Positions 5,495 through 40,689 of a DNA stretch of 55,220 nucleotides are shown piece after piece. The notes under the pieces were generated by a model. It was not told where the DNA came from and did not search any database. It worked only from the letters and a program-made list of their open reading frames with translations. The stretch spans positions 1-55,220 of the forward strand of contig JAGXTA010000088.1 in the NCBI GenBank assembly GCA_018333535.1, read 5' to 3'. A program made the position numbers and the translations under genes. The stretch comes from Deltaproteobacteria bacterium (GTDB taxonomy: Bacteria > Desulfobacterota > BSN033 > UBA1163). The first letter of the stretch is position 1. Each line of letters begins with the position of its first letter.

Positions 5495-7177
<1,683 letters not shown>

Positions 7178-7200
7178 AAACCTGAAAATATACCGGGTTA

Positions 7201-7236
7201 AAAAACGGTTTGGAAAAACTTCCAAGCCGTTTTTTT
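7201..7236 (+). terminator. Rho-independent terminator of groESL
   Basis: An inverted repeat (AAAAACGGTTTGGAA, loop AAAC, TTCCAAGCCGTTTTT, with one mismatch) is followed by a run of seven T. It lies 23 nt after the groEL stop codon. Confidence 0.88.
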
Positions 7237-7376
7237 ATTGCCTGAGCCTCTGTCTTTGAAAATCTCATGAACTTTTTTAAAGTTCGGTTGTCTAACAGGA
7301 AGCAAGCAAAAACGGGAACAAACGAACTGAGATCACTGGAACTATTGGATTCTATTTATGGAAAATAAATTTCTGC

Positions 7377-8336
7377 TTGCATTTGCTTTTAAAGAGATTT
7401 AATATTCTGCCTGAAGTGGAAGAGAGAGAGCTACCCATCGATTTTCGGCATCTTGAGACATTCTGTCGAGTTGCTGGTTTAAAAAGTTTTTCAAAGGCGG
7501 CGGAAGACCTCTTCCTTACTCAGCCCACGGTAAGCGGTCATATCCTCACCCTGGAAAAATCCCTGTCGATCCGTCTCTTCGACCGAACCGGAAGGGAAGT
7601 CCGTTTGACAAAGGCAGGAGAAATCTTCCACCGGCATGCCCTTAAAATCCTCGCCTCCCGCAAGGAATTGATCAATGCCCTCAGTGAATTTTCTCAGGGA
7701 ATCCGGGGGGAACTCTCTCTGGGGGCAAGCACCATCCCCGGAGAATATCTCCTGCCCAAACCGATGGGCGATTTTAAAAAAGAGCATCCCCATCTGGCCA
7801 TCTCTCTCAGGATCGCCGATACCAGGGAGATCGTTCAATATGTGCTGGAAGGAGTCATTGAATTCGGCTTAACAGGTGCGAAAGTAGACCACCCTTCCCT
7901 TCATTATGAAAAACATACGGAGGACGAAATCATCGTCGTAAGCCCATTCGATCATCCCCTTGGCCGAAAGAAGAGGGTGGAGATGGAGGACCTGCTGGGA
8001 GAACCCTGGATCATCCGGGAGGAGGGCTCGGGAACTCAGATGGCAGTCGAAAAAATGCTGAGGAAGAGAGGGAAGAGCCTGAAACAATTTCATGTGGCGA
8101 TGGAAATGGGAAGCACCTCTTCATTAAAGGAGGGGGTGAAGGCAGGATTGGGCCTGGCCTTCATTTCAAAAAGAGCCGCAGAAGAAGAATTGAACCGGAG
8201 ACTTCTCTCAAGAATTAATGTCGAGGGAATGGATTCTATCTTGCGACCGATCTATATCGTCTCATATCGCGGGAGGACGCTCTCTCCCGTTGGAATGGCA
8301 TTTCTCCGGTTTCTCAGAAAGAGCAGGAGCGAGTAG
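7377..8336 (+). CDS. LysR-family transcriptional regulator (upstream of tol genes)
   Basis: LysR-type regulator with an N-terminal winged helix-turn-helix (FSKAAEDLFLTQPTVSGHI) and a C-terminal substrate-binding domain (GASTIPGEYLLP onward). The sequence resembles the LysR group annotated as selenium-metabolism-associated in deltaproteobacteria, from memory only. The start is uncertain. In-frame TTG 7377 and GTG 7416 lack a good ribosome-binding site. Related proteins usually begin M-D-(L/F)-R-H-L-E-T-F, which would place initiation at the ATC codon at 7437, with GAGAG about 8 nt upstream. The stop is 9 nt before tolA, so it is probably co-transcribed with tolA-tolB-pal-cpoB, an unusual partner for an envelope operon. 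Confidence 0.85.
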   Translation: MHLLLKRFNILPEVEERELPIDFRHLETFCRVAGLKSFSKAAEDLFLTQPTVSGHILTLEKSLSIRLFDRTGREVRLTKAGEIFHRHALKILASRKELINALSEFSQGIRGELSLGASTIPGEYLLPKPMGDFKKEHPHLAISLRIADTREIVQYVLEGVIEFGLTGAKVDHPSLHYEKHTEDEIIVVSPFDHPLGRKKRVEMEDLLGEPWIIREEGSGTQMAVEKMLRKRGKSLKQFHVAMEMGSTSSLKEGVKAGLGLAFISKRAAEEELNRRLLSRINVEGMDSILRPIYIVSYRGRTLSPVGMAFLRFLRKSRSE

Positions 8337-8345
8337 GATATTCAG

Positions 8346-9104
8346 ATGAGCTGGCTAATCACCCTGGGGATTTCCCTGTTGCTCCATTCTGTTTTTGTTC
8401 TTTTGCTCAGCCTCAATCCCTGGCCTACCCTTATGAAGGTCCGCCCCGCAGCCTATACGGTGACCCTCATGCCCGTTTCCATACCTGTGCCTGAAATTCC
8501 TCCCCCCACTGCCCCACCCGTTCCTAAGGAAGAAAAGATTAAACCCGTTGAAAAGATAAAACCCATTCAAAAACCGAAAAAGGATGACATTGTCGAAAAG
8601 GTAAAAAAGAAGGAGAGAGATAAAGAGTCCATCGATCGCCTTCACAATGCCATCGAGGAAATTCGGAGAAAGGCTGCCCTCGATGAGATACATAAGCGAG
8701 TTTCTAAACGGGAGGTGACGCCGACGCCGACGCCGTCTCCCTCCCCTTCCCCGGTCATTTCTCCTGTACCCTCTCCCACTGCCCCATCGCCAACCCCTTT
8801 CTCTGTGTCGGCACAACAGTCAAAACTGAACGAATACTACAGCCTGATATGGGCAAAGATCAAAGCCTCGTGGACCATTCCAGAGCACCTTCTTAAAGAA
8901 AGGGTTGACTTGGAGACCATTATTGTCATAATAATAGAAGTGAATGGAAAAGTTCAAAAATCATGGTTCGAAAAAAAATCGGGCAATGCGCTCTATGACC
9001 AGATGGCCATGCGCGCTATTATCAAGGCGGAGCCTTTGCCTCCCATTCCAAAAGAGTTGAACCAGGAGAGCCTGGAGATCGGAATCCGTTTTACCCCGGA
9101 TTGA
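8346..9104 (+). CDS. tolA: TolA/TonB-like energy transducer
   Basis: A 252-aa protein with one N-terminal membrane helix (about residues 4-24), a long periplasmic Pro/Lys/Glu-rich linker (about residues 45-155) containing a PTPTPSPSPSP stretch, and a C-terminal TonB_C/TolA-type domain (about residues 165-250, KIKASWTIPEHLL onward). It should bridge the inner membrane to outer-membrane partners and transmit proton-motive force. TolQ and TolR, the usual motor, are not in this window. It is followed by tolB after 3 nt. Context favours the name tolA over tonB. Confidence 0.82.
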   Translation: MSWLITLGISLLLHSVFVLLLSLNPWPTLMKVRPAAYTVTLMPVSIPVPEIPPPTAPPVPKEEKIKPVEKIKPIQKPKKDDIVEKVKKKERDKESIDRLHNAIEEIRRKAALDEIHKRVSKREVTPTPTPSPSPSPVISPVPSPTAPSPTPFSVSAQQSKLNEYYSLIWAKIKASWTIPEHLLKERVDLETIIVIIIEVNGKVQKSWFEKKSGNALYDQMAMRAIIKAEPLPPIPKELNQESLEIGIRFTPD

Positions 9105-9107
9105 AAA

Positions 9108-10415
9108 ATGGTTAAATATTTCATCTGTATTCTTATTCTTGTTTTCTCCTTCACCCCATCGGTCGAGGCAAGGGTCTATCTCGACATCAATGCTCCCACC
9201 TTTGTTCAGATTCCCATCATCCTTCCGAAGTGGAAATCAGTTGATAAAACGCCCCCGGCCCTTACAGCGAAGCTCTATGAGGTCCTGGTCAATGACCTTA
9301 CCCTCTCCGGATTCTTCAAGGTGATCGATCATTCGCTTCTCCCGATCTATCTCAAAAAGAAGGAAGGCATCCCCGGCATGCTCTCCATTCAGGAATGGGC
9401 CTCTTCAGGCGGAGAGATCCTCCTCGCAGGAGAGGCAACCCTTGAAGGGGATGGCCTCAATCTAAGATTGAAATTTCATCTTGTCGATCTGGTGGAGCAG
9501 AAACACCTCGTGGGAAAACAATACGATGGGCATCTCCAGAACTTTCGAAATATGGTTCACCGCATTGCGGATGAAGTCATCTTCCACCTCACGGGCGAGA
9601 TGGGGGTTCACAATACGAAAATGGCCTATGTGATCCGACAGGGAGAAAGTAGAGAGATCTTTATCGCAGACTTTGATGGCGCCAATGTGAGACCCCTGAC
9701 CCAGAACCAGTCTATCAATGTTTCTCCGGTCTGGACGCCTGATAACCAGAAGATCGCTTTCACCTCCTACCTCAAGAGGAATCCGGATCTCTACCGGATC
9801 GATTTAAACGGCAAGAATCTTCAGCGGTTCTCCTCCCATCCCGGCTTGAACGTCTCTCCTTCCTGGTCGCCTGATGGGAAACAGATTGCCCTGATGATGG
9901 GAAAGGAGGGAAAATCGGACATCTATCTCCTCGACGCCAATGGTGGGAATCCGAAGAGGCTCACCGTAGGGCATGGAAATGAATCCACGCCGAGATGGTC
10001 TTCTGACGGCCAGCAGATTGTTTTTTCCTCTGACCGTTCGGGTTCGCCCCAGATCTATATCATGTCATCGGATGGCTCCAATGTCCGCCGCCTCACCTAT
10101 GAGGGAAACTACAATACCAGCCCTTCCTGGTCGCCCAAGGGGGACCGGATCGCTTTCTGCGGGAGGGCAGGAGGCCAATTCCATATCTTCACCATTGGAG
10201 CCGACGGATCAGGGTTAAAAAAATTAACCCTCAATGGTAGTAACAATGAAAGCCCTTGCTGGTCGCCGGACGGCCGTTACATTGCCTTTAGTTCGACTCG
10301 ACTGGGTGGAGGATCGAGGATTTATATCATGAACGCCAATGGATTCAATCAGAGGCCTCTCACGACATCGAAAGGAGGTGAATCAAGCCCGGCATGGTCC
10401 AAACGTTTTGAATAG
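9108..10415 (+). CDS. tolB: Tol-Pal system protein TolB
   Basis: A 435-aa periplasmic protein with a signal peptide (about residues 1-21, cleaved near VEA-RVY). The N-terminal domain (about 25-170) is the TolB alpha/beta domain. It is followed by a six-bladed WD40-like PD40 propeller with repeated 'SPSWSPDGKQIA' motifs. TolB binds Pal and links it to TolA for outer-membrane constriction during division. Length is normal for the family. It lies between tolA (3-nt gap) and pal. Confidence 0.96.
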   Translation: MVKYFICILILVFSFTPSVEARVYLDINAPTFVQIPIILPKWKSVDKTPPALTAKLYEVLVNDLTLSGFFKVIDHSLLPIYLKKKEGIPGMLSIQEWASSGGEILLAGEATLEGDGLNLRLKFHLVDLVEQKHLVGKQYDGHLQNFRNMVHRIADEVIFHLTGEMGVHNTKMAYVIRQGESREIFIADFDGANVRPLTQNQSINVSPVWTPDNQKIAFTSYLKRNPDLYRIDLNGKNLQRFSSHPGLNVSPSWSPDGKQIALMMGKEGKSDIYLLDANGGNPKRLTVGHGNESTPRWSSDGQQIVFSSDRSGSPQIYIMSSDGSNVRRLTYEGNYNTSPSWSPKGDRIAFCGRAGGQFHIFTIGADGSGLKKLTLNGSNNESPCWSPDGRYIAFSSTRLGGGSRIYIMNANGFNQRPLTTSKGGESSPAWSKRFE

Positions 10416-29309: not shown

Positions 29310-30227
29310 TTAGGCGCCCCATTCCTTTCCCCTGTCTTTGATGAAATGGGTGAAGGTTTTAATGGTTGGGTTAGTCCGCTCTTCCTTCAAAAAGAGAAGG
29401 GCCACCTGAAGGCTGAGCTTCTCATCCAGAGAAACCATTTTGATCAGCCCTCTTTTGGCCTCTTCTTCTGCAATTCTCTTGACAATTATTGAAACACCCT
29501 TCCCTTCTGAAACCCACTGTTTGATAAATTCCGAACTGCCTGCTTCAATGAGCAGCAAGGGGCGAATCCCCAACTCCTGAAATGCCTTAAGAACGATTTT
29601 CCTGGTCGTCGATCCTTTCGCCCGAATGATAAAAGGGAATTTCCTGATGGCTTTTAGGGAGATTTTCTCCCTTTTTGCCATGGGATGTGAGGGGGAAACA
29701 ATAAGGACGAGATCCTCTCTTAAGAACGGAATCGATTCAAGTTTGAAGGGAATCTTTGTCATTCCGATGAGCGCCACATCATTCCGGTAAGCCGTTAGGC
29801 TTTTTTCAATCTCTTCGGAATTCCCGACATCCAGTGCGATCTTGATGGAGGGATAGAGGTTCTGAAATCCGGAGAGAAGCGTCGGCATCAGGCATCTCGA
29901 GTAGGATTCGGTCGTCCCTATTCTCAAGAGACCGTGATGTTCCTTTTTCAAGCGCCCGAGGTGACTCTCGACCCCCCTGATATGGTTGGAAATTTTATGA
30001 GCGGATTTAAAAAGGATCTTACCCGCCTCGCTTAGATGAAATCCGCCCCTGCCCCTTTCAATGAGCCTCATTCCCACCTTATGCTCAAGTCCCTTGATGT
30101 GTTTGGTTACGGCGGGCTGTGAGACAAACAATTCTTCCGCGGCCTTAGTAAAACTCCTGTGTCTTACCACCTCATGGAAGACGAGCAAAGAATTGATCGA
30201 ATCGCGTAAAGGTTTTCTCTTTTCCAT
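29310..30227 (-). CDS. LysR-family regulator of the UbiD cluster
   Basis: A 305-aa LysR regulator, divergent from the UbiD cluster. The N-terminal HTH (FTKAAEELFVSQPAVTKHIKGL) and C-terminal effector domain (LRIGTTESYSRCLMP onward) are complete. A perfect 15-bp palindrome with T-N11-A spacing sits 7 bp before its start codon and about 64 bp upstream of the predicted transcription start of the UbiD operon. That is the classic place for LysR self-control and activation of the divergent operon. The inducer is unknown, probably an aromatic compound or its product. Confidence 0.9.
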   Translation of the reverse strand: MEKRKPLRDSINSLLVFHEVVRHRSFTKAAEELFVSQPAVTKHIKGLEHKVGMRLIERGRGGFHLSEAGKILFKSAHKISNHIRGVESHLGRLKKEHHGLLRIGTTESYSRCLMPTLLSGFQNLYPSIKIALDVGNSEEIEKSLTAYRNDVALIGMTKIPFKLESIPFLREDLVLIVSPSHPMAKREKISLKAIRKFPFIIRAKGSTTRKIVLKAFQELGIRPLLLIEAGSSEFIKQWVSEGKGVSIIVKRIAEEEAKRGLIKMVSLDEKLSLQVALLFLKEERTNPTIKTFTHFIKDRGKEWGA

Positions 30228-30332: not shown

Positions 30333-31748
30333 ATGGACCTCAGGGATTTCATCAATAGGTGTGAAAAAGAAGGGGAGTTAAAACGGATCAAGGCTGAAGT
30401 GGACTGGGACCTTGAGATCTCTCACATTGCGAAATTTGTTGAAGAGAAAAGCGGCCCGGCGTTGCTGTTTGAAAACATTAAGGGATACAAGAGCCCTGTC
30501 TTGACCGGCGCATTCGGGACAACCAAAAGGCTGGCAATCATCCTCGGAAAGAGTCCTGACCTTTCCATGGTCCAACTTACGAAGGAATGGGTCAATGTCG
30601 CCGTTAAGGAGGTCATTCGGGCAAAAGAACAGAAGGATGGCCCCATCTTCGAGAATATCCTCGAGGGTGATAAGGTCGATACGCTCGCCTTTCCATCCCC
30701 AAGGTTCTATGAACTGGACGGCGGCCGTTACTTTGGCACCGCCGTATTCATGGTGTTGCAGGATCCGGAGACCGGGGACATCAACCTCGGCACCTACCGC
30801 ATGGGCATCCTCGATGACAAAACCGTTGGCGTCCAGATTCTCAAGGGGAAAAAAGGCGACAGGATCATGAAGAAGTACGGAAAAGCTGGCAAAAAGATGC
30901 CGGCCTGCGCCATTATAGGCGGTGATCCTCTGCATATCTTTGCAAGCGCCGCCACCGTCAAGGCCAAAAGCGGGTACGATGTCGTAAGCTCATTGCGCGG
31001 CGAACCCATCGACATCGTAAAAGGCCAGCTCACCGGACTCCCCATTCCTGCGGCCGCGGAGATCGTCCTGGAAGGGGAAGTCGATCCTCAGAATTTGAGA
31101 AATGAAGGCCCCTTTGGCGAATATACAGGCTACTACACCGAAGAGTTGATCAAGCCGATTCCCAAACCCGCCCTTGAGGTGAAACGCATTTACTTCAGAA
31201 ACAATCCGGTCCTCTGGGAAACAAGCGTGGGCCGCCCCGTGGGGGATCAGCATATCCTCTATGCTTTTACGCGCAACGCAAGCTTGTGGACGGATCTGGT
31301 CAAGATGGAGATCCCGGGCATTAAATCGGTCTACACCCTGCCTGAAGCGTCCGGACGCTTCATTGTGGTCGTCTCCGTAGAGCAGATGTATCCGGGGCAC
31401 GCGGACCAGGTGGGGGCTGCAGTCATCGCAAGCAATACAGGGATGTATGGGATCAAGTGTGTGATTATCGTTGATGACGATATCGATGCGGACGACCTTC
31501 CGAGGGTATGGTGGGCACTTGGCACCCGTTACAATCCGGCGCGGGGAACGCAGATCATTAACAGAGGCAGGTCCACCCCACTCGACCCATCCCTCGGACC
31601 GGACGACAACAAGTTCATCACCTCTCGTATCATCCTCGACGCAACGATACCCTTTGAATGGAAAGTCAAACCCACGGAGATCAAGCTCTCGGAGAGTATG
31701 CTGTCAAAAGTAAAATCCCGCTGGAAAGAATATGGGTTTGAAGAATGA
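30333..31748 (+). CDS. UbiD-family (de)carboxylase, phenylphosphate carboxylase alpha/beta-like
   Basis: A 471-aa UbiD-family enzyme that uses prenylated FMN to add or remove CO2 on an aromatic ring. The start at 30333 (MDLRDFINRCEKEGE) fits the family and has an AAGGGGGAT site; an in-frame start at 30270 lies inside the promoter. Catalytic residues are in place: Arg156 (GTYRMG) and Glu258/Glu263 (NEGPFGEYTGYY), matching the R-E-E set of Fdc1. It is the first gene after the LysR-controlled promoter, followed by a HAD protein. Neighbours resembling gamma and delta subunits suggest it is one large subunit of a phenylphosphate-carboxylase-type complex; the substrate is inferred, not shown. Confidence 0.88.
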   Translation: MDLRDFINRCEKEGELKRIKAEVDWDLEISHIAKFVEEKSGPALLFENIKGYKSPVLTGAFGTTKRLAIILGKSPDLSMVQLTKEWVNVAVKEVIRAKEQKDGPIFENILEGDKVDTLAFPSPRFYELDGGRYFGTAVFMVLQDPETGDINLGTYRMGILDDKTVGVQILKGKKGDRIMKKYGKAGKKMPACAIIGGDPLHIFASAATVKAKSGYDVVSSLRGEPIDIVKGQLTGLPIPAAAEIVLEGEVDPQNLRNEGPFGEYTGYYTEELIKPIPKPALEVKRIYFRNNPVLWETSVGRPVGDQHILYAFTRNASLWTDLVKMEIPGIKSVYTLPEASGRFIVVVSVEQMYPGHADQVGAAVIASNTGMYGIKCVIIVDDDIDADDLPRVWWALGTRYNPARGTQIINRGRSTPLDPSLGPDDNKFITSRIILDATIPFEWKVKPTEIKLSESMLSKVKSRWKEYGFEE

Positions 31749-31750
31749 TT

Positions 31751-31860
31751 CTGGAATAATGGAATAGTGGAAGAATGGAATAATGGGTTCACTTTAATAC
31801 TTATCTAAAAATGAGTTTTGCCCCAATATTCCAACATTCCAGTGTTCCAATATTCCATAT
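31751..31860. repeat. 8-bp-period inverted array (F), after first UbiD gene
   Basis: The left arm (31751-31786) reads TGGAATAA/TGGAATAG/TGGAAGAA/TGGAATAA. The right arm (31823-31860) reads CCAATATTCCAACATTCCAG/TGTTCCAA. The arms are inverted copies with a 37-nt spacer. It starts 2 nt after the UbiD stop and ends 16 nt before the next gene. Confidence 0.82.
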
Positions 31861-31876
31861 TTTAAAGGAGAGACTT

Positions 31877-32434
31877 ATGGTTTTTGAAAAGAATCTTGAA
31901 AAGGCAAAGGAAAAGGCAAAAAAGGTAAAACTCTTTGTTCATGATGTCCATGGGGTTCTCACACAAAACACCTTCATCTGTGATATCGAGGGAAGGCGGA
32001 AATATGGGTTCTGGCATATGGATGGGTTTGGCGACCTCTCCCTGACGGCAAATGGAATCCAGATTGCTTTTCTCGACACGACCTCCATCGATGAGGAAGG
32101 GCTCTTTCGGGCTCGTGAACTGAAGCTCGATAAATTCTACTACAAAGTCAAAAACAAGATCGTGAAGATTGACGAACTTAAAAAGGATCTGGGAATCGGT
32201 GACGAAGATGTTGGATACATCGGCTGCGAAGTGACCGATATTGCATTGATGAAGAAGGTTGGGTTTGCTGTGGCAACAGCCGATGCCATTAACGAGGTAA
32301 AGGAGATTGCAGACTACATCACCACAGCTCCCGGAGGAAGAGGCCCCATCAGGGAAACCTGTGAATTCATCCTTAGAGCCATGGGAAAATGGGAAGAGTG
32401 GGTCGAGAAAGTCACCAGGATGGGATACAAATAG
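31877..32434 (+). CDS. HAD-family protein, delta-subunit-like, degenerate motifs
   Basis: A 185-aa KdsC-like HAD protein. An AAAGGAG site precedes ATG 31877; a longer in-frame ORF start lies inside the repeat and is rejected. Motif I reads HDVHGVLT (Asp23, His25): the second Asp of DxD, normally the general acid/base, is His. Motif II is DTT (67-69) instead of the usual S/T-G-R, and motif IV is GCEVTD (116-121) instead of GDDxxD. Phosphatase activity may thus be weak or lost, and it may be structural. It is about 45% similar by eye to the second HAD gene at 34226. HAD proteins are the delta subunits of phenylphosphate carboxylase. Confidence 0.8.
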   Translation: MVFEKNLEKAKEKAKKVKLFVHDVHGVLTQNTFICDIEGRRKYGFWHMDGFGDLSLTANGIQIAFLDTTSIDEEGLFRARELKLDKFYYKVKNKIVKIDELKKDLGIGDEDVGYIGCEVTDIALMKKVGFAVATADAINEVKEIADYITTAPGGRGPIRETCEFILRAMGKWEEWVEKVTRMGYK

Positions 32435-32498
32435 CTTCCATTAGAATGTCCATCCTGTATTTACGAATTGAATACTCTGCAAGGGCGGGCAAGAGGTT

Positions 32499-34154
32499 AT
32501 GACGGAGTTCCTCGAAGGGTTTGTGCCATATAGAAAAGAAGACGCAGAGAAATACAATCGGCTACGCTGGTGGTCTGGTTTGACGTTCGGCGACCTTCTG
32601 GATAAGGCGGCAAGCGTTTATCCGGACAAAGAAGCTTTTGTGGATGGAAGGAGCAGGCTCACCTATAAGGAGGCTAAGGAAAAGACAGATGGGCTGGCCA
32701 TTGGCCTGACGGACCTCGGCATTGCCCCACGGGATCGAGTGCTTATTCAGCTTCCCAACTGGAACGAGTTCGTTTTTGCCTATTTCGCTGTTCAAAAAAT
32801 GGGTTGCATTCCTGTGTTGCTTATAGATAGATATCGGCAGTATGAGATTGGCCACTTGCTTAAGCTGACAGGGGCCACCTTATGGATTGTTGCGGAAAAA
32901 TATAAGAAGACAGATTACCTGCCTATCGTGGAGGATGTGGTAAAAGAAAACCCGCAACTCAAGAACATCGTCCTAACAAGAAGCGAGGGACATGGATCCT
33001 TCAAAAGCATGGAGAGGTTGATTCTTGAAACAAAGTTGGATGCGGCTAACCTCAAAAGGCTTGCCCAGAGGAGGCCAGATCCTATGGAAGTAGCCCATAT
33101 GGGGCCAACGGGAGGAACAACCGGGTTGCCCAAGCTTGTTCCTCGCACCCATAACAGCCTCATATGCACTATGGAATATGCGGCCTATGCATGGGAGGTG
33201 AATTTTCATGATGTCTGCCTACTTGCCGGCCCTGTTGGCCATGACCTCGTCTTTACCAAGGGACTCTGCAGCACCCTTTTCGCCCTTGGCAAGAATATTT
33301 TTTTAGATTCCACAGAGATGAAAGATGTCTGTGAAACCATCCAAAGGGAGAGGGTGACAACGATCGTATGGACTCCTACCCTGGCAAAACGGTTGCTCGA
33401 TTTTGAGGGGCTGAAGGATTATGATCTGAGTTCTCTAAGAGCGATGCATTGCGGAGGCAGCACAAGTCTGCCGGAGATGGTCAAAGGGGTGAGAGAAGAT
33501 CTCCGATGCAACTTCTATAATGGTTATGGGGGCACGGAAGGCCAGACCACCTTAACACGGACAAACGACAGCCTTGAGACTATCCTCCATACAGTGGGCA
33601 AACCTACCTGCCCTTACGATATCTATAAGGTGGTCAGCCCGGACGGGAAAGACCTGCCTCCCAATACCCCCGGGGAATTGATGATCAAAGGGCCGGGAGT
33701 CTTTACCGGTTACTATAAGGCTCCGGATGAGAACGCAAAGGTTTTCAACGAAGAAGGATTCTTCAGGACGGGTGACCTGGCCATGATTGATGAAAATGGC
33801 GTTGTCACCCTCACCGGTCGAATCAAAGAGATGATCAATCGCGGTGGCGAGAGCATCAGCTCCGCAGAGATAGAGAACCTGATCAGCAGCCACCCTGAGG
33901 TCGCTCTTGTGGCGGTGATCCCCATGCCGGATCCGGTGTTTGGAGAAAGGGTCTGTGCTTACATTCAACCCAAACTCGGAGCAATCTTAAGTTTTGAAAA
34001 GATCATCACCCATCTCAAAGAGAAAAAAGCCTCGGTGCTTCAACTTCCGGAAAGGATCGAATTCATTGAGACCATGCCTTTTACAAAGGCCGAAAAGATA
34101 GATAAGAAATTTTTAAGAGAAGATGTTGAGAAAAAGTTAAAAGTAGTTCAATGA
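32499..34154 (+). CDS. EntE-like aryl-AMP ligase / aryl-CoA ligase
   Basis: A 551-aa adenylate-forming enzyme close to 2,3-dihydroxybenzoate-AMP ligases (EntE/DhbE). The N-terminus (FVPYRKEDAEKYNRLRWW) and LLIDRYRQYEIGHLLKLTGA are typical of that group. The ATP loop is GPTGGTTGLPKLVPRTHN, the A5 region is NGYGGTEGQ, the hinge region is GRIKEMINRGGESIS, and the catalytic Lys motif is KAEKIDKKFLRE. It should activate an aryl acid to the adenylate and, in a degradation setting, to the CoA thioester. Siderophore partners (EntB/EntF-like) are absent. Its place inside a UbiD cluster suggests it takes the carboxylated product, such as a hydroxybenzoate. Confidence 0.88.
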   Translation: MTEFLEGFVPYRKEDAEKYNRLRWWSGLTFGDLLDKAASVYPDKEAFVDGRSRLTYKEAKEKTDGLAIGLTDLGIAPRDRVLIQLPNWNEFVFAYFAVQKMGCIPVLLIDRYRQYEIGHLLKLTGATLWIVAEKYKKTDYLPIVEDVVKENPQLKNIVLTRSEGHGSFKSMERLILETKLDAANLKRLAQRRPDPMEVAHMGPTGGTTGLPKLVPRTHNSLICTMEYAAYAWEVNFHDVCLLAGPVGHDLVFTKGLCSTLFALGKNIFLDSTEMKDVCETIQRERVTTIVWTPTLAKRLLDFEGLKDYDLSSLRAMHCGGSTSLPEMVKGVREDLRCNFYNGYGGTEGQTTLTRTNDSLETILHTVGKPTCPYDIYKVVSPDGKDLPPNTPGELMIKGPGVFTGYYKAPDENAKVFNEEGFFRTGDLAMIDENGVVTLTGRIKEMINRGGESISSAEIENLISSHPEVALVAVIPMPDPVFGERVCAYIQPKLGAILSFEKIITHLKEKKASVLQLPERIEFIETMPFTKAEKIDKKFLREDVEKKLKVVQ

Positions 34155-34161
34155 TCGGTAA

Positions 34162-34195
34162 GACGATGAACAGTTCATCGTTCACCCTTCATTGA
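34162..34195. repeat. Short 7-bp-period hairpin (H), after ligase gene
   Basis: ACGATGAA-CAG-TTCATCGT is followed by TTCACCC/TTCATTG. The same units make up the rpoB-rpoC array at 18812-18899. It starts 7 nt after the ligase stop codon. Confidence 0.6.
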
Positions 34196-34225
34196 ATATT
34201 TTTTTAAAATTGTGGAGGTTTTAAA

Positions 34226-34768
34226 ATGAACGAGAAGGAAAAAGCCCTTGAAAAGGCAAAAAAGGTCAAATTCGTTATCCTCGACATTCATGGGATATTA
34301 ACTGACAATACCCTCTATTATACGGATGACGGAAAAAAGTCGGAATGTTTTTCCTTGAAGGACCGATTGGGGTGCATGGCCTTGCGGGAAGGCGGGATTG
34401 GCGTGGCTTTCCTGACCAGTAAAATTTCAAGGGCGGATGAACAGGTGGGCCATATCTATGGCGTTCCCCCTGAAAGGCTCTGGGGAACTTCCGCCAAGGT
34501 TGGAAAGCTTGACGAGTTTGAGAAGGAATCCGGCCTTAAAGATGAGGACTTATGCTATGTGGGAGATGAAATGATCGATCTCGGCGTTATGAAACGAGTC
34601 GGATTTTCAGCAGCGCCTTCCGACGGAGCAACCGAGGCAAAATCCGTAGCCAACTACATCACCCTTGCCGGTGGGGGAAAAGGAGTGGTTAGAGAGGTTG
34701 CTGAATTTATTCTCAGAGCGCAGGGGAAGTGGGAAGCCGTAGTGGAGAAGATATCCAAATCAGACTGA
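34226..34768 (+). CDS. HAD-family protein, phenylphosphate carboxylase delta-like
   Basis: A 180-aa KdsC-like HAD protein, preceded by GGAGG. Motif I reads LDIHGILT (Asp20, His22), with the same Asp-to-His change as the first HAD gene. Motif II is LTSK (about 63-66) and motif IV is GDEMID (113-118), closer to an active HAD phosphatase than the first copy. In phenylphosphate carboxylase the delta subunit is a HAD protein needed for the reaction with phenylphosphate. It lies 37 nt before the second UbiD gene. A KdsC role in lipopolysaccharide synthesis is unlikely given the context and motif I. Confidence 0.8.
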   Translation: MNEKEKALEKAKKVKFVILDIHGILTDNTLYYTDDGKKSECFSLKDRLGCMALREGGIGVAFLTSKISRADEQVGHIYGVPPERLWGTSAKVGKLDEFEKESGLKDEDLCYVGDEMIDLGVMKRVGFSAAPSDGATEAKSVANYITLAGGGKGVVREVAEFILRAQGKWEAVVEKISKSD

Positions 34769-34805
34769 TACTTAACGCCAACAAATAAAGAAAGGAGGAA
34801 AGATC

Positions 34806-36251
34806 ATGCCTTACACGGTTTTTAAAGATAACAGGGAATTTATCAAGGCGCTGGAAGCAAACGACGATCTCGTAACTATCCAGCAGGAGGTGGACTGGGA
34901 CCTTGAAATGGGAGCCATCGTAAGAAGGGTTTGCGAAAAGAAATCGGCCTCCCCTTATTTTAAAAAGATTAAGGACTATCCTGGGTTTGAAGCCTTTGGC
35001 GCACCTCTGGCAACCTATAAGAGGCTGGCCATTGCTATGGGGATGAAACCCGATGCCTCTGTGCCGGAGATATCGAATGAATATGTGAAGAGAACGACCG
35101 GCGACCCCGTTAAATCCATTCTCATGGACAAGAAGAAAGCGCCCTGCAAAGAGAACATCTGGACAGGGAAAGAGGCGGACCTCTTTAAGCTTCCCGGTCC
35201 CATGGTTCATGACGGGGATGGAGGAAGATATCTGGCAACCTGGCATTTTGTGGTATCCAAGGATCTCGATACTGAATTTGTCAACTGGGGAATGTACCGG
35301 CAGATGGTCTTCGATGAAAAGACGATGGTGGGCCCCGTGCTCCCCTTTTCCGATATGGGAAAGATGTTTTATGGAAAGTATGTTCCGAAAAACAAACCCA
35401 TGCCTTTTGCTACCGTCATCGGCTGTGATCCTCTGTCCGGCGTGGCGGCCTGTGCGCCCTCACCCATTCCTGAAGATGAGTTCACCGGAATGTTGATGGG
35501 AGCTCCTGTCGAACTGGTGAAGTGCGAGACCAACGATCTCTACGTTCCGGCTCATGCGGAAATCATTATTGAAGGCGAGGTCCTTCCGGACATCAAAATT
35601 GACGAAGCGCCTTTCGGAGAATACACAGGTTACCGAACATCTCCGAGAGAGCCCAGAACGGTGTACCGCGTCAACGCCATCACCTTCCGGAATAACCCCA
35701 TAGTGACGGTCTCCAACATGGGCGTCCCCACCGATGAAGGCCAGCTTCTCCGATCCTTCTCTCTGGGCCTTGAGATGCGGAAACTTCTGGAGAGCCAGGG
35801 CATTCCGATCACAGGCGTCTTTATGTTGCCCGAATCGACCCACCATCTCGTTGTGGTGGGAGTCAGACCCGCCTACAGCGGCATTGCAAGCCAGATTGCC
35901 AATCTCGTCTTCGGAAGCAAATTGAGCCCATGGTTCACGATGGTGGTGGTTGTGGACAATGAAACCGATATCTACAACAAAGACGAGGTCATCCATGCCC
36001 TCTGCACAAAATGCCATCCGATACGTGGGATCCGAAAATATGAACAAGCCCCTGGAACTCCGCTCTATCCCTTTGCCGATCCGGAGGAGCGGAAATGGAG
36101 CCGCGGTTCCCAGGTGCTCTTCGACTGCACTTTCCCCCTTGACTGGCCCAAGGCATCCATTCCCATTAAGGTCTCCTTTAATAATGTCTACCCCAAGGAG
36201 ATTCAGGACATGGTTCTGAAAAACTGGAAATCCTATGGATTTAAAGATTGA
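34806..36251 (+). CDS. UbiD-family (de)carboxylase, second large subunit
   Basis: A 481-aa UbiD-family enzyme with AAAGGAGG before its ATG. Arg165 (GMYRQM) and Glu267/Glu272 (DEAPFGEYTGYR) keep the prenyl-FMN catalytic set. It is clearly different in sequence from the first UbiD gene, as expected for alpha/beta subunits of a heteromeric complex. The next gene, a small gamma-like subunit, begins 11 nt after its stop. Together with the HAD genes this gives a full alpha-beta-gamma-delta set. Confidence 0.88.
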   Translation: MPYTVFKDNREFIKALEANDDLVTIQQEVDWDLEMGAIVRRVCEKKSASPYFKKIKDYPGFEAFGAPLATYKRLAIAMGMKPDASVPEISNEYVKRTTGDPVKSILMDKKKAPCKENIWTGKEADLFKLPGPMVHDGDGGRYLATWHFVVSKDLDTEFVNWGMYRQMVFDEKTMVGPVLPFSDMGKMFYGKYVPKNKPMPFATVIGCDPLSGVAACAPSPIPEDEFTGMLMGAPVELVKCETNDLYVPAHAEIIIEGEVLPDIKIDEAPFGEYTGYRTSPREPRTVYRVNAITFRNNPIVTVSNMGVPTDEGQLLRSFSLGLEMRKLLESQGIPITGVFMLPESTHHLVVVGVRPAYSGIASQIANLVFGSKLSPWFTMVVVVDNETDIYNKDEVIHALCTKCHPIRGIRKYEQAPGTPLYPFADPEERKWSRGSQVLFDCTFPLDWPKASIPIKVSFNNVYPKEIQDMVLKNWKSYGFKD

Positions 36252-36262
36252 GGAGGAAACAC

Positions 36263-36523
36263 ATGGCTAAAAAAGAGTATGATACGTTTATCTTGATCGA
36301 GCTGTCTCAGGTTCCAGAAGATAAGGAAATGGAGATCATTGTCCGTGACCTCACGCCAGAGGATCGCAGATATAAATATCGAAGTTTCTATGCAACCGCA
36401 ATGATTTCAAAATCCGAATCAAAATATCCCGATCGTCTTTGGGTAAGGCTGGGAAGAGGTCAACTCCAGGAGAAACCCTGGTCCGTGAAAATCTTAAAAG
36501 AAGTGAACAAATTTAGTTATTAA
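36263..36523 (+). CDS. Small protein, phenylphosphate carboxylase gamma-like
   Basis: An 86-aa protein (MAKKEYDTFILIELSQVPE...). The start is the ATG at 36263 with GAGGAGG upstream. It is mostly beta-strand-like, charged, and lacks membrane segments or known catalytic motifs. Size and position directly after a UbiD subunit match the gamma subunit (PpcC, about 10 kDa) of phenylphosphate carboxylase. I assign it by size, position and general character, not by a motif. Confidence 0.6.
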   Translation: MAKKEYDTFILIELSQVPEDKEMEIIVRDLTPEDRRYKYRSFYATAMISKSESKYPDRLWVRLGRGQLQEKPWSVKILKEVNKFSY

Positions 36524-36552
36524 GGGTCTCAAAATTGAATTGACATGCACCG

Positions 36553-36634
36553 CAAAATCTCCCCTGGCCCCTCTTTTCCAAAGAGGGGTAATTTCCCTCC
36601 CTTTGGAAAAGGGAGGTGAGGAGGGATTTTATAA
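36553..36634. repeat. Double palindrome repeat, second copy
   Basis: CCCCTCTTTTCCAAAGAGGGG (36568-36588, split here by spacing) and CCTCCCTTTGGAAAAGGGAGG (36597-36616) form two palindromes in the same layout as 3512-3590. The flanks (AAAATCTCCCC, GAGGGATTTTATAAA) are also related. It separates the gamma-like gene from the third UbiD gene. Confidence 0.75.
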
Positions 36635-36688
36635 AACAATGTCGTCTTTATTATGAGACTGTTAATAATACCTCGAGGACATGACCCG

Positions 36689-38047
36689 ATGCCATTATCA
36701 GGGATCAAATATTTTATTGAGGAGTTGAGGGCGCGGGGGGACATTCTTTCCATCTCAACTCCTCTCGACCCGAAATATGAAATCTCGGCCTTCCTCTCCG
36801 AGATCGGAAAGAAGGACGCCCCCGCCATTCTCTTTGAAAAGGTGAAGGGCCACCGTTTACCTGTCGTGGGAAACCTTCTCGGAACGAGGAGACGGCTCAG
36901 CCTTGCCCTTGGCATTGATCCTGACAAACTCTTTGAAGAATTTCCAAAGCGAATGGGAAAGGGAATTGCGCCAGTTCTCACTCGAGATGCGTCTCCCAAA
37001 GTGGTGGCCAAGAAAGGAAAAGGGGTGGACCTTACTAAACTCCTTCCTGTCCTGACCCACTATGCAGGAGATTCCGGCCCCTACATCACGTCCGGTTTCT
37101 CGTCTGCCAGGGATCCAGAGACCGGTGGAATCGGAAGGGGCCTTCACAGAATGGAAATGAGGGGAAAAAATCGACTCGGCATATCACTGCTCAACCCTCC
37201 CCTTGCGGAAATCTACGGAAAATATAAGAGGATGCGCCGGCGGATGGAGATTGCCACGGTCATCGGCATGGACCCTCTCATCTTCCTTGCCTCAATCCTG
37301 AAAGCGCCTGCAGGGGTGGACAAACTCTCCATAGCCGGAGGCATCAGAGGAAAAGCTGTGCCAATGGCAAAGGCTGAAAACATCGATCTTGAAATTCCTG
37401 CCTTTGCCGAAATCGTGATCGAAGGTTTTATCGACCCCAAAGGTAAGGAAGAGGATGGCGTTCTTGGAGAATCGAGCGGATACTATATGGGGTTCTCAAA
37501 AAGCCCTACCATCCAGGTCATAGCCATCACTTTCCGAAAAAAACCTCTTTATCATGCCATTGTTCCCTGGAGCCTCGAGGTGGATAACCTTCTCTATCTC
37601 GTTCATGGTCTCGACTTTGTTCCAAAGATGAAGAGGGAAATTCCTTCCATCAGAGAGGTCCGCCTCATCCCCGGAACATTCGGTTCTCACGCTGTGATCA
37701 GTCTTGATACGGAGAATAGAGGCGAAATCCGAAGAGCCCTATCGCTTGCCCTCTCTTTTACCAATATTAAAAAAGTCATTGCCGTCAATACCGATATAAA
37801 CATACAGGACGATCAGGAACTGGAATGGGCTCTGGCAACCCGATTCCAGGCAGACAAAGACCTGATGGTCATGACCAACCTGAGGGGGCAACCCATTGAT
37901 CCCTCTTCGGGGGATGGATTCTTAACAGCAAAGATGGGATTGGATGCGACAAAACCCAGGCTTAAAGGATTTGAAAAGGTGGGAGTCCCTGAGGGGGTGA
38001 AAAAAAGAATTACTCCTGTCCTTCAGAAATTCGTCAAAGGGAGATGA
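36689..38047 (+). CDS. UbiD-family (de)carboxylase, third copy
   Basis: A 452-aa UbiD-family enzyme. The start at 36689 (MPLSGIKYFIEELRARGD) has GAGGA 9 nt upstream; an ATG at 36653 is less likely. Arg154 (HRMEMRG) and the second acidic residue Glu261 are present. The first Glu of the usual pair is Asp256 (EEDGVLGESSGYY), and the usual PF is VL. It resembles the archaeal-type/UbiD single-subunit group more than the two other copies. It is coupled to ubiX (1 nt between stop and start). It may act on a different substrate from the alpha/beta pair. Confidence 0.86.
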   Translation: MPLSGIKYFIEELRARGDILSISTPLDPKYEISAFLSEIGKKDAPAILFEKVKGHRLPVVGNLLGTRRRLSLALGIDPDKLFEEFPKRMGKGIAPVLTRDASPKVVAKKGKGVDLTKLLPVLTHYAGDSGPYITSGFSSARDPETGGIGRGLHRMEMRGKNRLGISLLNPPLAEIYGKYKRMRRRMEIATVIGMDPLIFLASILKAPAGVDKLSIAGGIRGKAVPMAKAENIDLEIPAFAEIVIEGFIDPKGKEEDGVLGESSGYYMGFSKSPTIQVIAITFRKKPLYHAIVPWSLEVDNLLYLVHGLDFVPKMKREIPSIREVRLIPGTFGSHAVISLDTENRGEIRRALSLALSFTNIKKVIAVNTDINIQDDQELEWALATRFQADKDLMVMTNLRGQPIDPSSGDGFLTAKMGLDATKPRLKGFEKVGVPEGVKKRITPVLQKFVKGR

Positions 38048-38048
38048 G

Positions 38049-38648
38049 ATGAAGAGAATAATCGTTGGAATCTCCGGTGCCACCGGAGCGATCTATGGCA
38101 TCAGGCTGCTCGAAGTCCTCTCAAAATCGAATGTGGAGACCCATCTGATCATCACCGAGGCCGCTGAAAGAACGATTCGTATGGAGACCGATTGGAGCAT
38201 AGAGAAAGTAAAATCTTTGGCAAAGGTCGTTTATGATATCAAAGATGTGGGAGCGGATATCGCCAGTGGTTCTTTCCACACCGATGGAATGGTCGTGATG
38301 CCCTGTTCCATCAAGAGCCTATCGGCGATTGCCAATTCTTTTAATGTGAACCTTCTCATTCGGGCGGCAGACGTAACGATTAAGGAAAGAAGAAAATTGG
38401 TTCTTGCAGTGAGGGAAACACCTCTTCACAAAGGCCACCTCAACCTGATGATGAATCTCGCCGACCTTGGGGTGATCATTCTTCCGCCCATCCCTGCCTT
38501 CTACTTCCATCCCAAAACCATGGACGACCTGATTAACCATACGGTCGGGAAAGTCCTCGATCTGTTCCATATCGAGCACGATCTCTTTGCCCGCTGGGGA
38601 AGCGCCGGGATCAAAAAGACTCTGAGAAAGAAAGGATTGAACCATTAG
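38049..38648 (+). CDS. ubiX: Flavin prenyltransferase UbiX
   Basis: A 199-aa enzyme that attaches a dimethylallyl group to FMN to make the prenylated FMN cofactor of UbiD enzymes. Signature segments are present: GISGATGAIYGIRLLEVL (7-24), MPCSIKSLSAIANSF (near residue 85) and RETPLH (near residue 124). Its start is 1 nt after the third UbiD stop. Its own stop overlaps the presumed ATT start of the downstream riboflavin kinase. One UbiX could supply all three UbiD proteins here. Confidence 0.95.
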   Translation: MKRIIVGISGATGAIYGIRLLEVLSKSNVETHLIITEAAERTIRMETDWSIEKVKSLAKVVYDIKDVGADIASGSFHTDGMVVMPCSIKSLSAIANSFNVNLLIRAADVTIKERRKLVLAVRETPLHKGHLNLMMNLADLGVIILPPIPAFYFHPKTMDDLINHTVGKVLDLFHIEHDLFARWGSAGIKKTLRKKGLNH

Positions 38649-39027
38649 AATCCGCGGGAAAATTGTCGAAGGGCTCAGGGAGGCAGGTCATTTTACCCAG
38701 ATCCCCTGGGTGAGAAAGCAGTTCATAGAAAAACTCGCCATTGATCCCTACCCCGGAACCCTCAATTTAGAGATCATTGACCCTGAATCCCTCCAAATTT
38801 TCCATACTCTCAAGACCCAAAAAGGGATAGAGATCACTCCCGAAGATCCCTCCTTTTGCAGTGCCAGATGTTATCCTATCCTCATCAACGGCCAGTTAAA
38901 AGCCGCCATCGTCCTGCCCCTGGTGGAGGGTTACCCCGAAAATAAAATGGAATTGATCGCCTCGAAGAATATCAAAGAAGCCCTTTCTATAAAAGCAGGA
39001 GATGATTTAGAAGTGGAGATTGGGTAG
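38644..39027 (+). CDS. CTP-dependent riboflavin kinase (DUF120, archaeal type), ATT start
   Basis: About 127 aa, matching DUF120/RibK of archaea, which phosphorylates riboflavin to FMN using CTP. Matching segments are RGKIVEGLREAGHF (compare EGEVVSGLGEGRYF in M. jannaschii, from memory), IDPYPGTLNLEI and an AIVLPL segment. The conserved N-terminus is encoded upstream of the first normal start codon (GTG 38710). The frame opens after a TGA at 38638. The best start is ATT at 38644, with AAAGGA 7 nt before it and overlapping the ubiX TAG (ATTAG). It would supply FMN to UbiX. The stop TAG lies at the boundary of a group II intron, so the last residues may be altered. Confidence 0.8.
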   Translation: MRIRGKIVEGLREAGHFTQIPWVRKQFIEKLAIDPYPGTLNLEIIDPESLQIFHTLKTQKGIEITPEDPSFCSARCYPILINGQLKAAIVLPLVEGYPENKMELIASKNIKEALSIKAGDDLEVEIG

Positions 39028-40689
39028 AGTAGAGAGCTGGCGTAGTAGCGAGGGCTCTATCTCCAGCTCCCCCTCATCAAACCGTACGTGCGGTTTTCCC
39101 GCATACGGCTTTCCGATCATCTTCTTCCAGAAGCTTTCGCAGTCTGAGTCCACGGAGCAGTCGTCGGTATCTTGTATAATTTAAGATTGTCATAAAGATA
39201 TCTGTAGGGATAAACTTTGTAACCTCTGCTTTTCTTCACATGCTTCCGTCTCAGATAAATTCGTACCCTCTCATCCAGAAACTCTTTGAGCCTCGTCAGG
39301 TCTCGGCTACAGTTACCATAGTAAAAGTAACCTACCCATCCTCGAACCAATGCATTGAGCTTCCCGATGAGCACCTCTTTGGGTAACTTAAGGTTATTCC
39401 GACAAGTGAGCGCTTTTATCTCCGCCTTGATCTTGGCCATGGCTTCCTTTGAAGGTGTGATGAGGGGAAACATTCTTCCTGTTCTGGGGTTCTTCTTAAC
39501 TTCCAGGGTAAAGCCAAGAAAGTGAAATCTCTGCTTCTTGGCATCTATCACCCTCGTCTTGTCCTCGTTGAGACTTAACTCTAAACCCCTCAGGACCGCT
39601 TTGATTCCCTTCAGCACCCTCTCCGTCTGACCCTGACACAGGACCACAAAATCATCCGCATAACGGATCAATCTCGCCTTAAATCGCTCCTCTACCTTTC
39701 TCACTTTCCATATCCGATCCAGAACATGAAGATAGATATTGGCGAGCAACGGCGATATCACGCCCCCCTGCGGATTCCCCTCTGTCCTCTTCTTCCCATC
39801 TCTCCCTTCTTCTACCACTGGCGCCTTTAACCACAGCTTGATTAACCGCAGGATGTTCTTATCCACGATTCGCTTGGCCACCAATGCCAGTAGTTTGTCG
39901 TGGGGGATGGTATCAAAGTACTTCGAGATGTCGGCATCAATTACCTGAGTCTTTCCCATGCGTAGCTGCAAGGAAACATCTCCATCGCCTGATGCACATT
40001 CCGCTTCGGCCTAAACCCGTAGGAATTACCCTCAAAGTCCACCTGAAGTTCGGCTCCTGCTTGGCCTTCCGGTATAGTTTCCTCTGAAGTTCCCGAATCC
40101 TATCTGGAGTTTCCAGCGTCACCGCAATCTCCTGCCCTTCCCTCCTTCAGAAACACGATGAAAGCATTGCCCCTTCCCTCTCACAAGGTTTCGCTCTCCT
40201 TGAGATCCAAACGGTACTATGGGCAACTCCGATTCCCTTGCAGACCGAGTGAATTTTCGTCTCCTTATATTCACCCGTTGCCACCCTGTATGGCATCTGC
40301 AATGGCCTCCCGTGCTACCCCACATGGCTTCCCCTGCGTGTCACCCTTGCTACCCCGGGAGTCCACCTATCGGTTGTGGTCCCGCCATGGCGGGATCAGG
40401 ACAGATGCTCCAGCCTTCCCCTCCTGACCACAGGGTCGGCAACTCCATTTCCATTCAAGAGGCTACTTATAGGTACGCTTCCGCTGCAACCCGCAGGTTT
40501 GCTCGACTCACTCTATGAGCCTTTGTCAGGGAACTCAGTGCTTCAGGTTACCCCTTACACCTCCCTCCAGCTACGTGGGCGAACTGCCGAATTCCCACGG
40601 TCGGACTTCAACCGACAAGTCATATGTTCTACACGGCATACGGTCAGGTCTTGACATTGGACAAATCCCCTGGCGCTTGGCCTTTACAC
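39025..40689 (-). mobile_element. Degenerate group II intron
   Basis: A minus-strand retroelement. Domain V is recognisable at 39079-39112 (minus strand AGCCGTATGCGGGAAAACC then GCACGTACGGT), followed by a domain VI-like hairpin with GAGCTGG/CCAGCTC arms and an end CTCTACTCTAC at about 39025. Structured domain I-IV sequence continues to about 40689, where GTGTAAAGG may be the 5' end (a weak match to GTGYG). The internal reverse transcriptase has a deletion and a frameshift (separate entry). The 3' end abuts the riboflavin kinase stop codon. The 5' side abuts a pseudogene fragment. Boundaries are approximate. Confidence 0.8.
39117..40122 (-). pseudogene. Group II intron reverse transcriptase/maturase, broken
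   Basis: The longest piece (39117-39971, 284 aa) carries IDADISKYFDTIPHDKL, the catalytic YADD (RYADDFVVLCQG) and the maturase domain ending APWTQTAKASG. Upstream in another frame lies FEGNSYGFRPKRNVHQAM (about 40043-39990), and a third frame gives MTLETPDRIRELQRKLYRKA (from 40122). The first reverse-transcriptase blocks that normally lie between LYRKAKQEPNF and YGFRPKRN are missing (an internal deletion). A one-base deletion near 39990 breaks the frame between HQAM and SLQLRMGKTQ. The protein cannot be made intact. Confidence 0.88.

Follow-up and report, generated by a model that had tools for sequence, protein, structure and literature searches.

Delta-like HAD subunits with a DxH motif in a phenylphosphate carboxylase operon of a deltaproteobacterium

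The 55,220-nucleotide stretch of DNA analysed here (hereafter the window) is contig JAGXTA010000088.1 of assembly GCA_018333535.1, from a Deltaproteobacteria bacterium of the Desulfobacterota (BSN033; UBA1163). The genes at 30333 to 39027 are a phenylphosphate carboxylase (Ppc) operon, its PpcA and PpcB both scoring above curated cut-offs, and lie in the order ppcB, HAD-A, ligase, HAD-B, ppcA, ppcG, UbiD, UbiX and riboflavin-kinase-like gene. Our subject is the pair of HAD proteins, described from their translations, profile matches, alignment columns and predicted models. HAD-A (delta-like subunit 1, 185 residues, 31877..32434, + strand) carries DVH in motif I (D23, H25), the flap FWHMDGFG (H47), an altered motif II (D67), K94 and GCEVTD in motif IV (C117, D121). 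HAD-B (delta-like subunit 2, 180 residues, 34226..34768, + strand) carries DIH in motif I (D20, H22), the flap FSLKDRLG, LTSK in motif II (T64), K91 and GDEMID in motif IV (D114, D118).

The remaining genes of the operon, all on the + strand, agree with this identification. The beta subunit is the PpcB-like UbiD protein (30333..31748, starting at the ATG of MDLRDF; TIGR02724, 680.8 bits, cut-off 468.95) and the alpha subunit the PpcA-like UbiD protein (34806..36251; TIGR02723, 720.6 bits, cut-off 564.6). The PpcG-like gamma subunit (36263..36523) scores 56.7 bits with TIGR02725 (E 1.7e-15), below the cut-off of 135.55, is 33% identical to Azoarcus PpcG and stands at the expected operon position. 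Behind it follow a third UbiD-family protein (36653..38047; TIGR00148, 284.7 bits, cut-off 244.85), a UbiX flavin prenyltransferase (38049..38648; NF004685, 266.2 bits, cut-off 188) and a DUF120 or CTP-dependent riboflavin-kinase-like protein (38710..39027; PF01982); the first and last of these three occupy equal positions in Azoarcus. The riboflavin-kinase-like gene is also the neighbour of UbiX in Azoarcus and at 10 of the 14 loci that a search with HAD-B identified, and its product may supply flavin mononucleotide for prenyl-FMN synthesis. Between the two HAD genes lies an AMP-dependent aryl-acid ligase (32499..34154; PF00501), whose closest solved structures are dihydroxybenzoate- and salicylate-AMP ligases and which possibly activates 4-hydroxybenzoate; among the annotated pair loci, none but the window and that of genome G008 (locus L062, 10850-12550) showed a ligase in this place. 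A divergent LysR-type regulator precedes the operon (29310..30227, - strand; PF03466, PF00126), and directly behind it, at 39117-39971 (-), an open reading frame of 284 residues encodes a reverse transcriptase with a group II intron maturase domain.

In HAD phosphatases, motif I supplies the nucleophilic aspartate and, two residues on (+2), the general acid/base aspartate, and motifs II to IV and the flap supply the other catalytic residues and the metal ligands. The sequence-only reading had assigned both proteins to the Ppc delta or KdsC family, and operon context and profile matches confirm it. Its motifs I, HDVHGVLT in HAD-A and LDIHGILT in HAD-B, stand in the translations, and the alignment with Escherichia coli KdsC bears out its claim that the acid/base aspartate has become histidine: the +2 residue is D in 13/13 KdsC-type rows and H in all 60 rows of the three DxH classes described below. 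Also as had been read, motifs II and IV of HAD-A are altered (DTTS and GCEVTD), where HAD-B has LTSK and GDEMID; throughout the HAD-A class the motif II threonine is aspartate (24/24), and the metal-binding aspartate of motif IV is Cys in 19 rows, Ser in 3 and Tyr in 2. Within the window, a reverse-translated D[VI]HG[VI]LT-type pattern matches the two HAD genes and nothing else, and it has no match in 100 shuffles. Chance, sequencing error and drift as sources of DxH are excluded by these shuffles and by the conserved columns; the histidine being fixed across all three classes and the motif II and IV changes of HAD-A across its own class, they are conserved sequence. Both proteins have the predicted KdsC-type (C0) HAD fold, the nucleophile and the motif III lysine, and neither has the KdsC phosphatase signature of DxD in motif I with GDDxxD in motif IV. 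The AlphaFold models are confident (mean predicted local distance difference test score 95.0 for HAD-B and 93.8 for HAD-A) and best match KdsC in the PDB, with template modelling scores on the query of 0.90 and 0.85, the Moraxella enzyme being the top match for both. The strand before motif II stops at the Thr/Asp position in each model (residues 59-64 in HAD-B, 62-67 in HAD-A), which supports the alignment there.

The DxH proteins fall into three classes: a single-copy type C (13 rows) and the two members of the pair, A (24 rows) and B (23 rows). These 60 rows include near relatives and are not 60 independent events; the 75 HAD rows collected were reduced to 73 by merging identical sequences and excluding those shorter than 150 residues, and two HAD-B pieces lacking motif I, from locus L044 and its copy L101, were left out. 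All 60 keep the nucleophile and the motif III lysine, have histidine at +2 and have glutamate for the second aspartate of motif IV, a position that is D in 13/13 KdsC-type rows. Beyond these shared features, the classes have lost different residues. Type C has the flap FxHxDGFG, the motif II threonine and GDE. Class B has the threonine (23/23) and GDEMID, its flap histidine is leucine, and the glycine after the flap aspartate is Arg, Ser or Lys. Class A has the flap histidine (24/24) and has lost both the threonine and the first motif IV aspartate (24/24). The motif II threonine and both motif IV aspartates are thus retained in 36/36 rows of B and C. Because all the residues needed apart from the +2 aspartate are kept, HAD-B and type C are candidates for phospho-aspartate chemistry; in HAD-A this set is incomplete. 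The earlier suggestion of either a changed reaction or a structural subunit therefore divides between the two proteins, HAD-A, without two catalytic motifs, being probably non-catalytic, and HAD-B, with nucleophile, threonine, lysine and both motif IV aspartates, possibly an enzyme. In the draft genome of Desulfosarcina cetonica JCM 12296 (L044), HAD-B lies across two frames (5860-6545) and several PpcA pieces follow in a row (6570-9505), which reflects either errors in the draft or genuine decay and duplication.

The distribution of the DxH motif was examined with PpcA as bait, so that the HAD genes were not chosen by their motif. The window's phylum was sampled with 395 genomes, and a PpcA match at E 1e-130 turned up in 27 of them. 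Wherever PpcA identity reached 66% or more, a delta-like HAD lies no further than 1.5 kb away and is DxH (25/25 loci). A second sample of 398 genomes came from the phylum of the genome that carries locus L039, a Clostridia metagenome-assembled genome; 7 had a PpcA match at E 1e-120, and at 7/7 loci, with PpcA 62-71% identical, a delta-like HAD again lies within 1.5 kb and is DxH. In total, a delta-like HAD of the DxH kind adjoins PpcA at 32/32 loci where PpcA identity is 62% or higher (window counted). Of these, the window and L109 (in L039's genome, found by HAD-B bait) were not new to the analysis, and it had also met further members of the window's class earlier. Across both samples, 8 loci encode a PpcA-like protein of 46-51% identity, and none of them has such a HAD. 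With HAD-B as bait, 14/14 loci also carry HAD-A (the one at L037 cut by a contig end) and a PpcG-like gene, and no ppc relative was found in the flanks examined (up to 1.5 kb) of 12 DxD KdsC-type HADs of the same set. DxH is therefore a fixed signature of the sampled delta-like subunits, Azoarcus excepted, and the DxH delta is a genuine and fixed form of a subunit already known. No published account of DxH HADs or of this delta variant was found, at least among the titles and abstract openings listed. One PpcA match, at L105 (G662:C40:4106-5539), has an internal TAA stop.

The exception is the plasmid pAZKH of Azoarcus sp. KH32C, whose gene order, ppcB-ppcD-ppcA-ppcG-UbiD-UbiX-DUF120, matches the series in the window. 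Three ppsABC-type genes precede the series there, whereas the window has no pps gene nearby. Azoarcus has a single delta gene between ppcB and ppcA, with DxD and GDDLVD, whereas the window has two, with DxH and GDE or GCE, and the ligase in between. HAD-A and HAD-B are 38% and 42% identical to Azoarcus PpcD and have the nucleophile and the motif III lysine in common with it. KdsC (YrbI, 3-deoxy-D-manno-octulosonate 8-phosphate phosphatase, a type C0 HAD) shares their predicted fold, and its rows are DxD in 13/13 cases. The Azoarcus delta scores 366.8 bits with TIGR02726, the PpcD equivalog, and is the only delta above the NCBI cut-off reached in the comparison; where the PpcD family model has DxD in motif I, the window has DVH and DIH. 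In the TIGR02726 model, replacing D by H costs 2.7 bits and by A 3.2 bits; as the former about equals the D to H penalty of the KdsC model (3.2 bits), the TIGR02726 seed favours D. A search for further deltas from the Pseudomonadota gave no relative on viral contigs and, among plasmids, only KH32C above 60% identity. The sequence-only reading had made its case depend on whether all known delta subunits carry DxD; Azoarcus KH32C does and TIGR02726 favours D, but the delta-like genes at all 32 close-PpcA loci are DxH, and the window's pair is consequently not an isolated oddity.

In a tree of the delta sequences, from which three long-branch rows (L094, L098 and L103) were excluded, the DxH rows form one side of a branch with support 100/99, also when the +2 and Glu columns are removed, and Azoarcus lies outside them. 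Class A forms one group and so does class B, A and B jointly are weakly supported (90/71), and monophyly of type C is neither rejected nor shown (p 0.386). The PpcA tree, which omits L041 (identical to L075) and ten more rows that are fragments or nearly identical copies, differs from the delta tree in placing Azoarcus with five type C operons of the phylum of L039's genome (98/96). The approximately unbiased test on PpcA did not reject the alternative (p 0.115, or 0.129 if L109 need not join), and forcing the Azoarcus delta together with six type C deltas of that phylum gave p 0.071. This is no more than a hint that, within Ppc, the DxH form may have come first. In the Clostridia genome (G400), the A and B HADs group with the others and PpcA (L109) branches outside the other ppc operons, which suggests that this operon is a mosaic.

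Phenylphosphate is likely the substrate, because homologues of the phenylphosphate synthase subunit PpsA are common in the genomes with DxH operons, including the window's. On contig G000:C50 of that genome lie homologues of PpsA (43% over 608 residues) and PpsB (49% over 349 residues); no pps gene was found among the window ORFs examined. We searched 26 genomes with a DxH operon for PpsA, of which 25 are distinct (G193 and G401 gave identical matches). Besides the window's genome, 17/25 have PpsA at 40% identity or more, and in 12 of the 17 its gene shares a contig with PpcA, no more than about 22 kb away. Of the eight type C genomes in the window's phylum, seven encode a PpsA of 58-64% identity and the eighth, G315, one of only 28%, and among the pair-bearing genomes of the window's class, 9/12 have a full-length PpsA at 41-43% and G006 a fragment. 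PpsA and PpsB homologues adjoin the operon in L038, L040 and L041, and in L039 a PpsB and a weak PpsA-like protein do so. A link between DxH and loss of phenylphosphate synthase, which the lack of pps genes in the window had led us to expect, was considered and rejected, as PpsA and PpsB are present in the genome and elsewhere often lie next to the operon.

The presence of DxH in every comparable operon sampled from other anaerobes points to an altered use of the phosphate group. Phenolate is the form that carboxylation requires; the general acid of a HAD would donate a proton to the departing group, and phenolate should leave readily enough to need no acid. We propose that HAD-A and HAD-B are delta-type Ppc subunits, and that HAD-B probably still uses Asp20 and Mg2+ to attack phenylphosphate, as would the single delta of the type C operons. 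With His22 in place of the general acid, phenolate would depart unprotonated and be captured by CO2 in the UbiD subunits, and His22 probably also slows or couples hydrolysis of the phospho-enzyme. HAD-A is probably a non-catalytic paralogue that serves as a partner in a KdsC-like oligomer. KdsC-type enzymes are reportedly tetramers with active sites at subunit interfaces, and because of these interface sites a mixed A:B oligomer is plausible by analogy. Of the readings considered, this proposal has the best support, and we judge its prospects as a whole to be evenly balanced. A more elaborate form of it, which we advance tentatively and consider rather doubtful, would make the two proteins complementary halves of one delta enzyme: the single type C delta combines the catalytic core with a flap histidine, after duplication B would have kept the core and A the flap, an A:B oligomer would rebuild a composite interface site, and the DxH HAD would cleave phenylphosphate to phenolate and hold the phospho-aspartate, its hydrolysis being coupled to CO2 fixation; DxH may even be the original delta state and the DxD of Azoarcus a later replacement.

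Replacement of the acid/base aspartate in 60/60 rows, together with the loss of two more motifs in HAD-A, could also mean that both HADs are pseudo-enzymes with a structural or regulatory role, holding the UbiD subunits together while another phosphatase or the UbiD core itself handles phenylphosphate. A dead scaffold would not be expected to keep the nucleophile, Thr, Lys and both motif IV aspartates in 36/36 rows of B and C, and no further KdsC-type HAD was found at E 0.001 in the window's genome, which is 97.2% complete (at E 0.6 there are two matches, both short and weak); we hold this explanation to be rather unlikely. Because histidine can act as an acid or a base and the remaining site is intact in B and C, HAD-B might instead be a conventional Mg2+ phosphatase, with His doing the same acid/base work as Asp and nothing new in the mechanism. 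The swap is fixed, however, together with the D to E change in motif IV (60/60, where 13/13 KdsC-type rows keep both aspartates), which looks functionally tied to the complex, and we regard an ordinary phosphatase as unlikely. Very improbable, in our judgement, is an operon that carboxylates free phenol or another arene without a phosphate, its HADs having lost phosphatase function for that reason: the window ORFs without pps would fit it, as would the DxH genomes without PpsA at 40% identity, but PpsA and PpsB occur in the window's genome and beside the operon in several others, and the PpsA of 7/8 type C genomes of the window's phylum is 58-64% identical.

Several observations weigh against the proposal. 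With TIGR02726, HAD-A and HAD-B score 121.9 and 134.2 bits and do not reach the cut-off of 281.95. The pps genes of the window's genome sit on another contig than the operon, PpsA at 40% identity is absent from 8/25 DxH genomes, and within the window's class G003 has PpsA matches of 28% and 27% over most of the length and G004 has none. The Thauera enzyme speaks for the proposal in one respect: according to PMC6114531, its alpha-beta-gamma core catalyses CO2 exchange with 4-hydroxybenzoate, and the delta subunit is required for phenylphosphate carboxylation, not for CO2 exchange, and alone hydrolyses phenylphosphate very slowly. Against it, as this delta, from the family modelled with DxD, is already a slow phosphatase, DxH is not needed for slow hydrolysis. 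The same paper (PMC6114531) describes in the sulfate reducer Desulfatiglans anilini a phenol cluster with pps, ppc beta and ORF8-like (UbiX-like) genes for carboxylating phenol; the delta role was given to a KDO-8-P phosphatase gene that the cluster does not include, and a gamma gene was not found. This assigned delta was transcribed but not detected in the proteome (PMC6114531), and so a delta is perhaps not always needed. Elsewhere, Ppc-like alpha and delta genes are reported from a Dehalococcoidia single-cell genome (PMC4959651), and the section of PMC5946492 that compares Syntrophorhabdus Pps-Ppc operons does not mention HAD-type delta genes.

The NCBI delta model scores HAD-A and HAD-B far under its cut-off, and our results suggest that the enzyme of the Betaproteobacteria may be an atypical one. 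In anaerobic phenol metabolism, the link between phenylphosphate cleavage and the para-carboxylation of phenol is, as far as we are aware, still to be explained. A DxH delta with one seemingly catalytic and one degenerate copy offers a direct handle on whether the acid must go in order to deliver phenolate.

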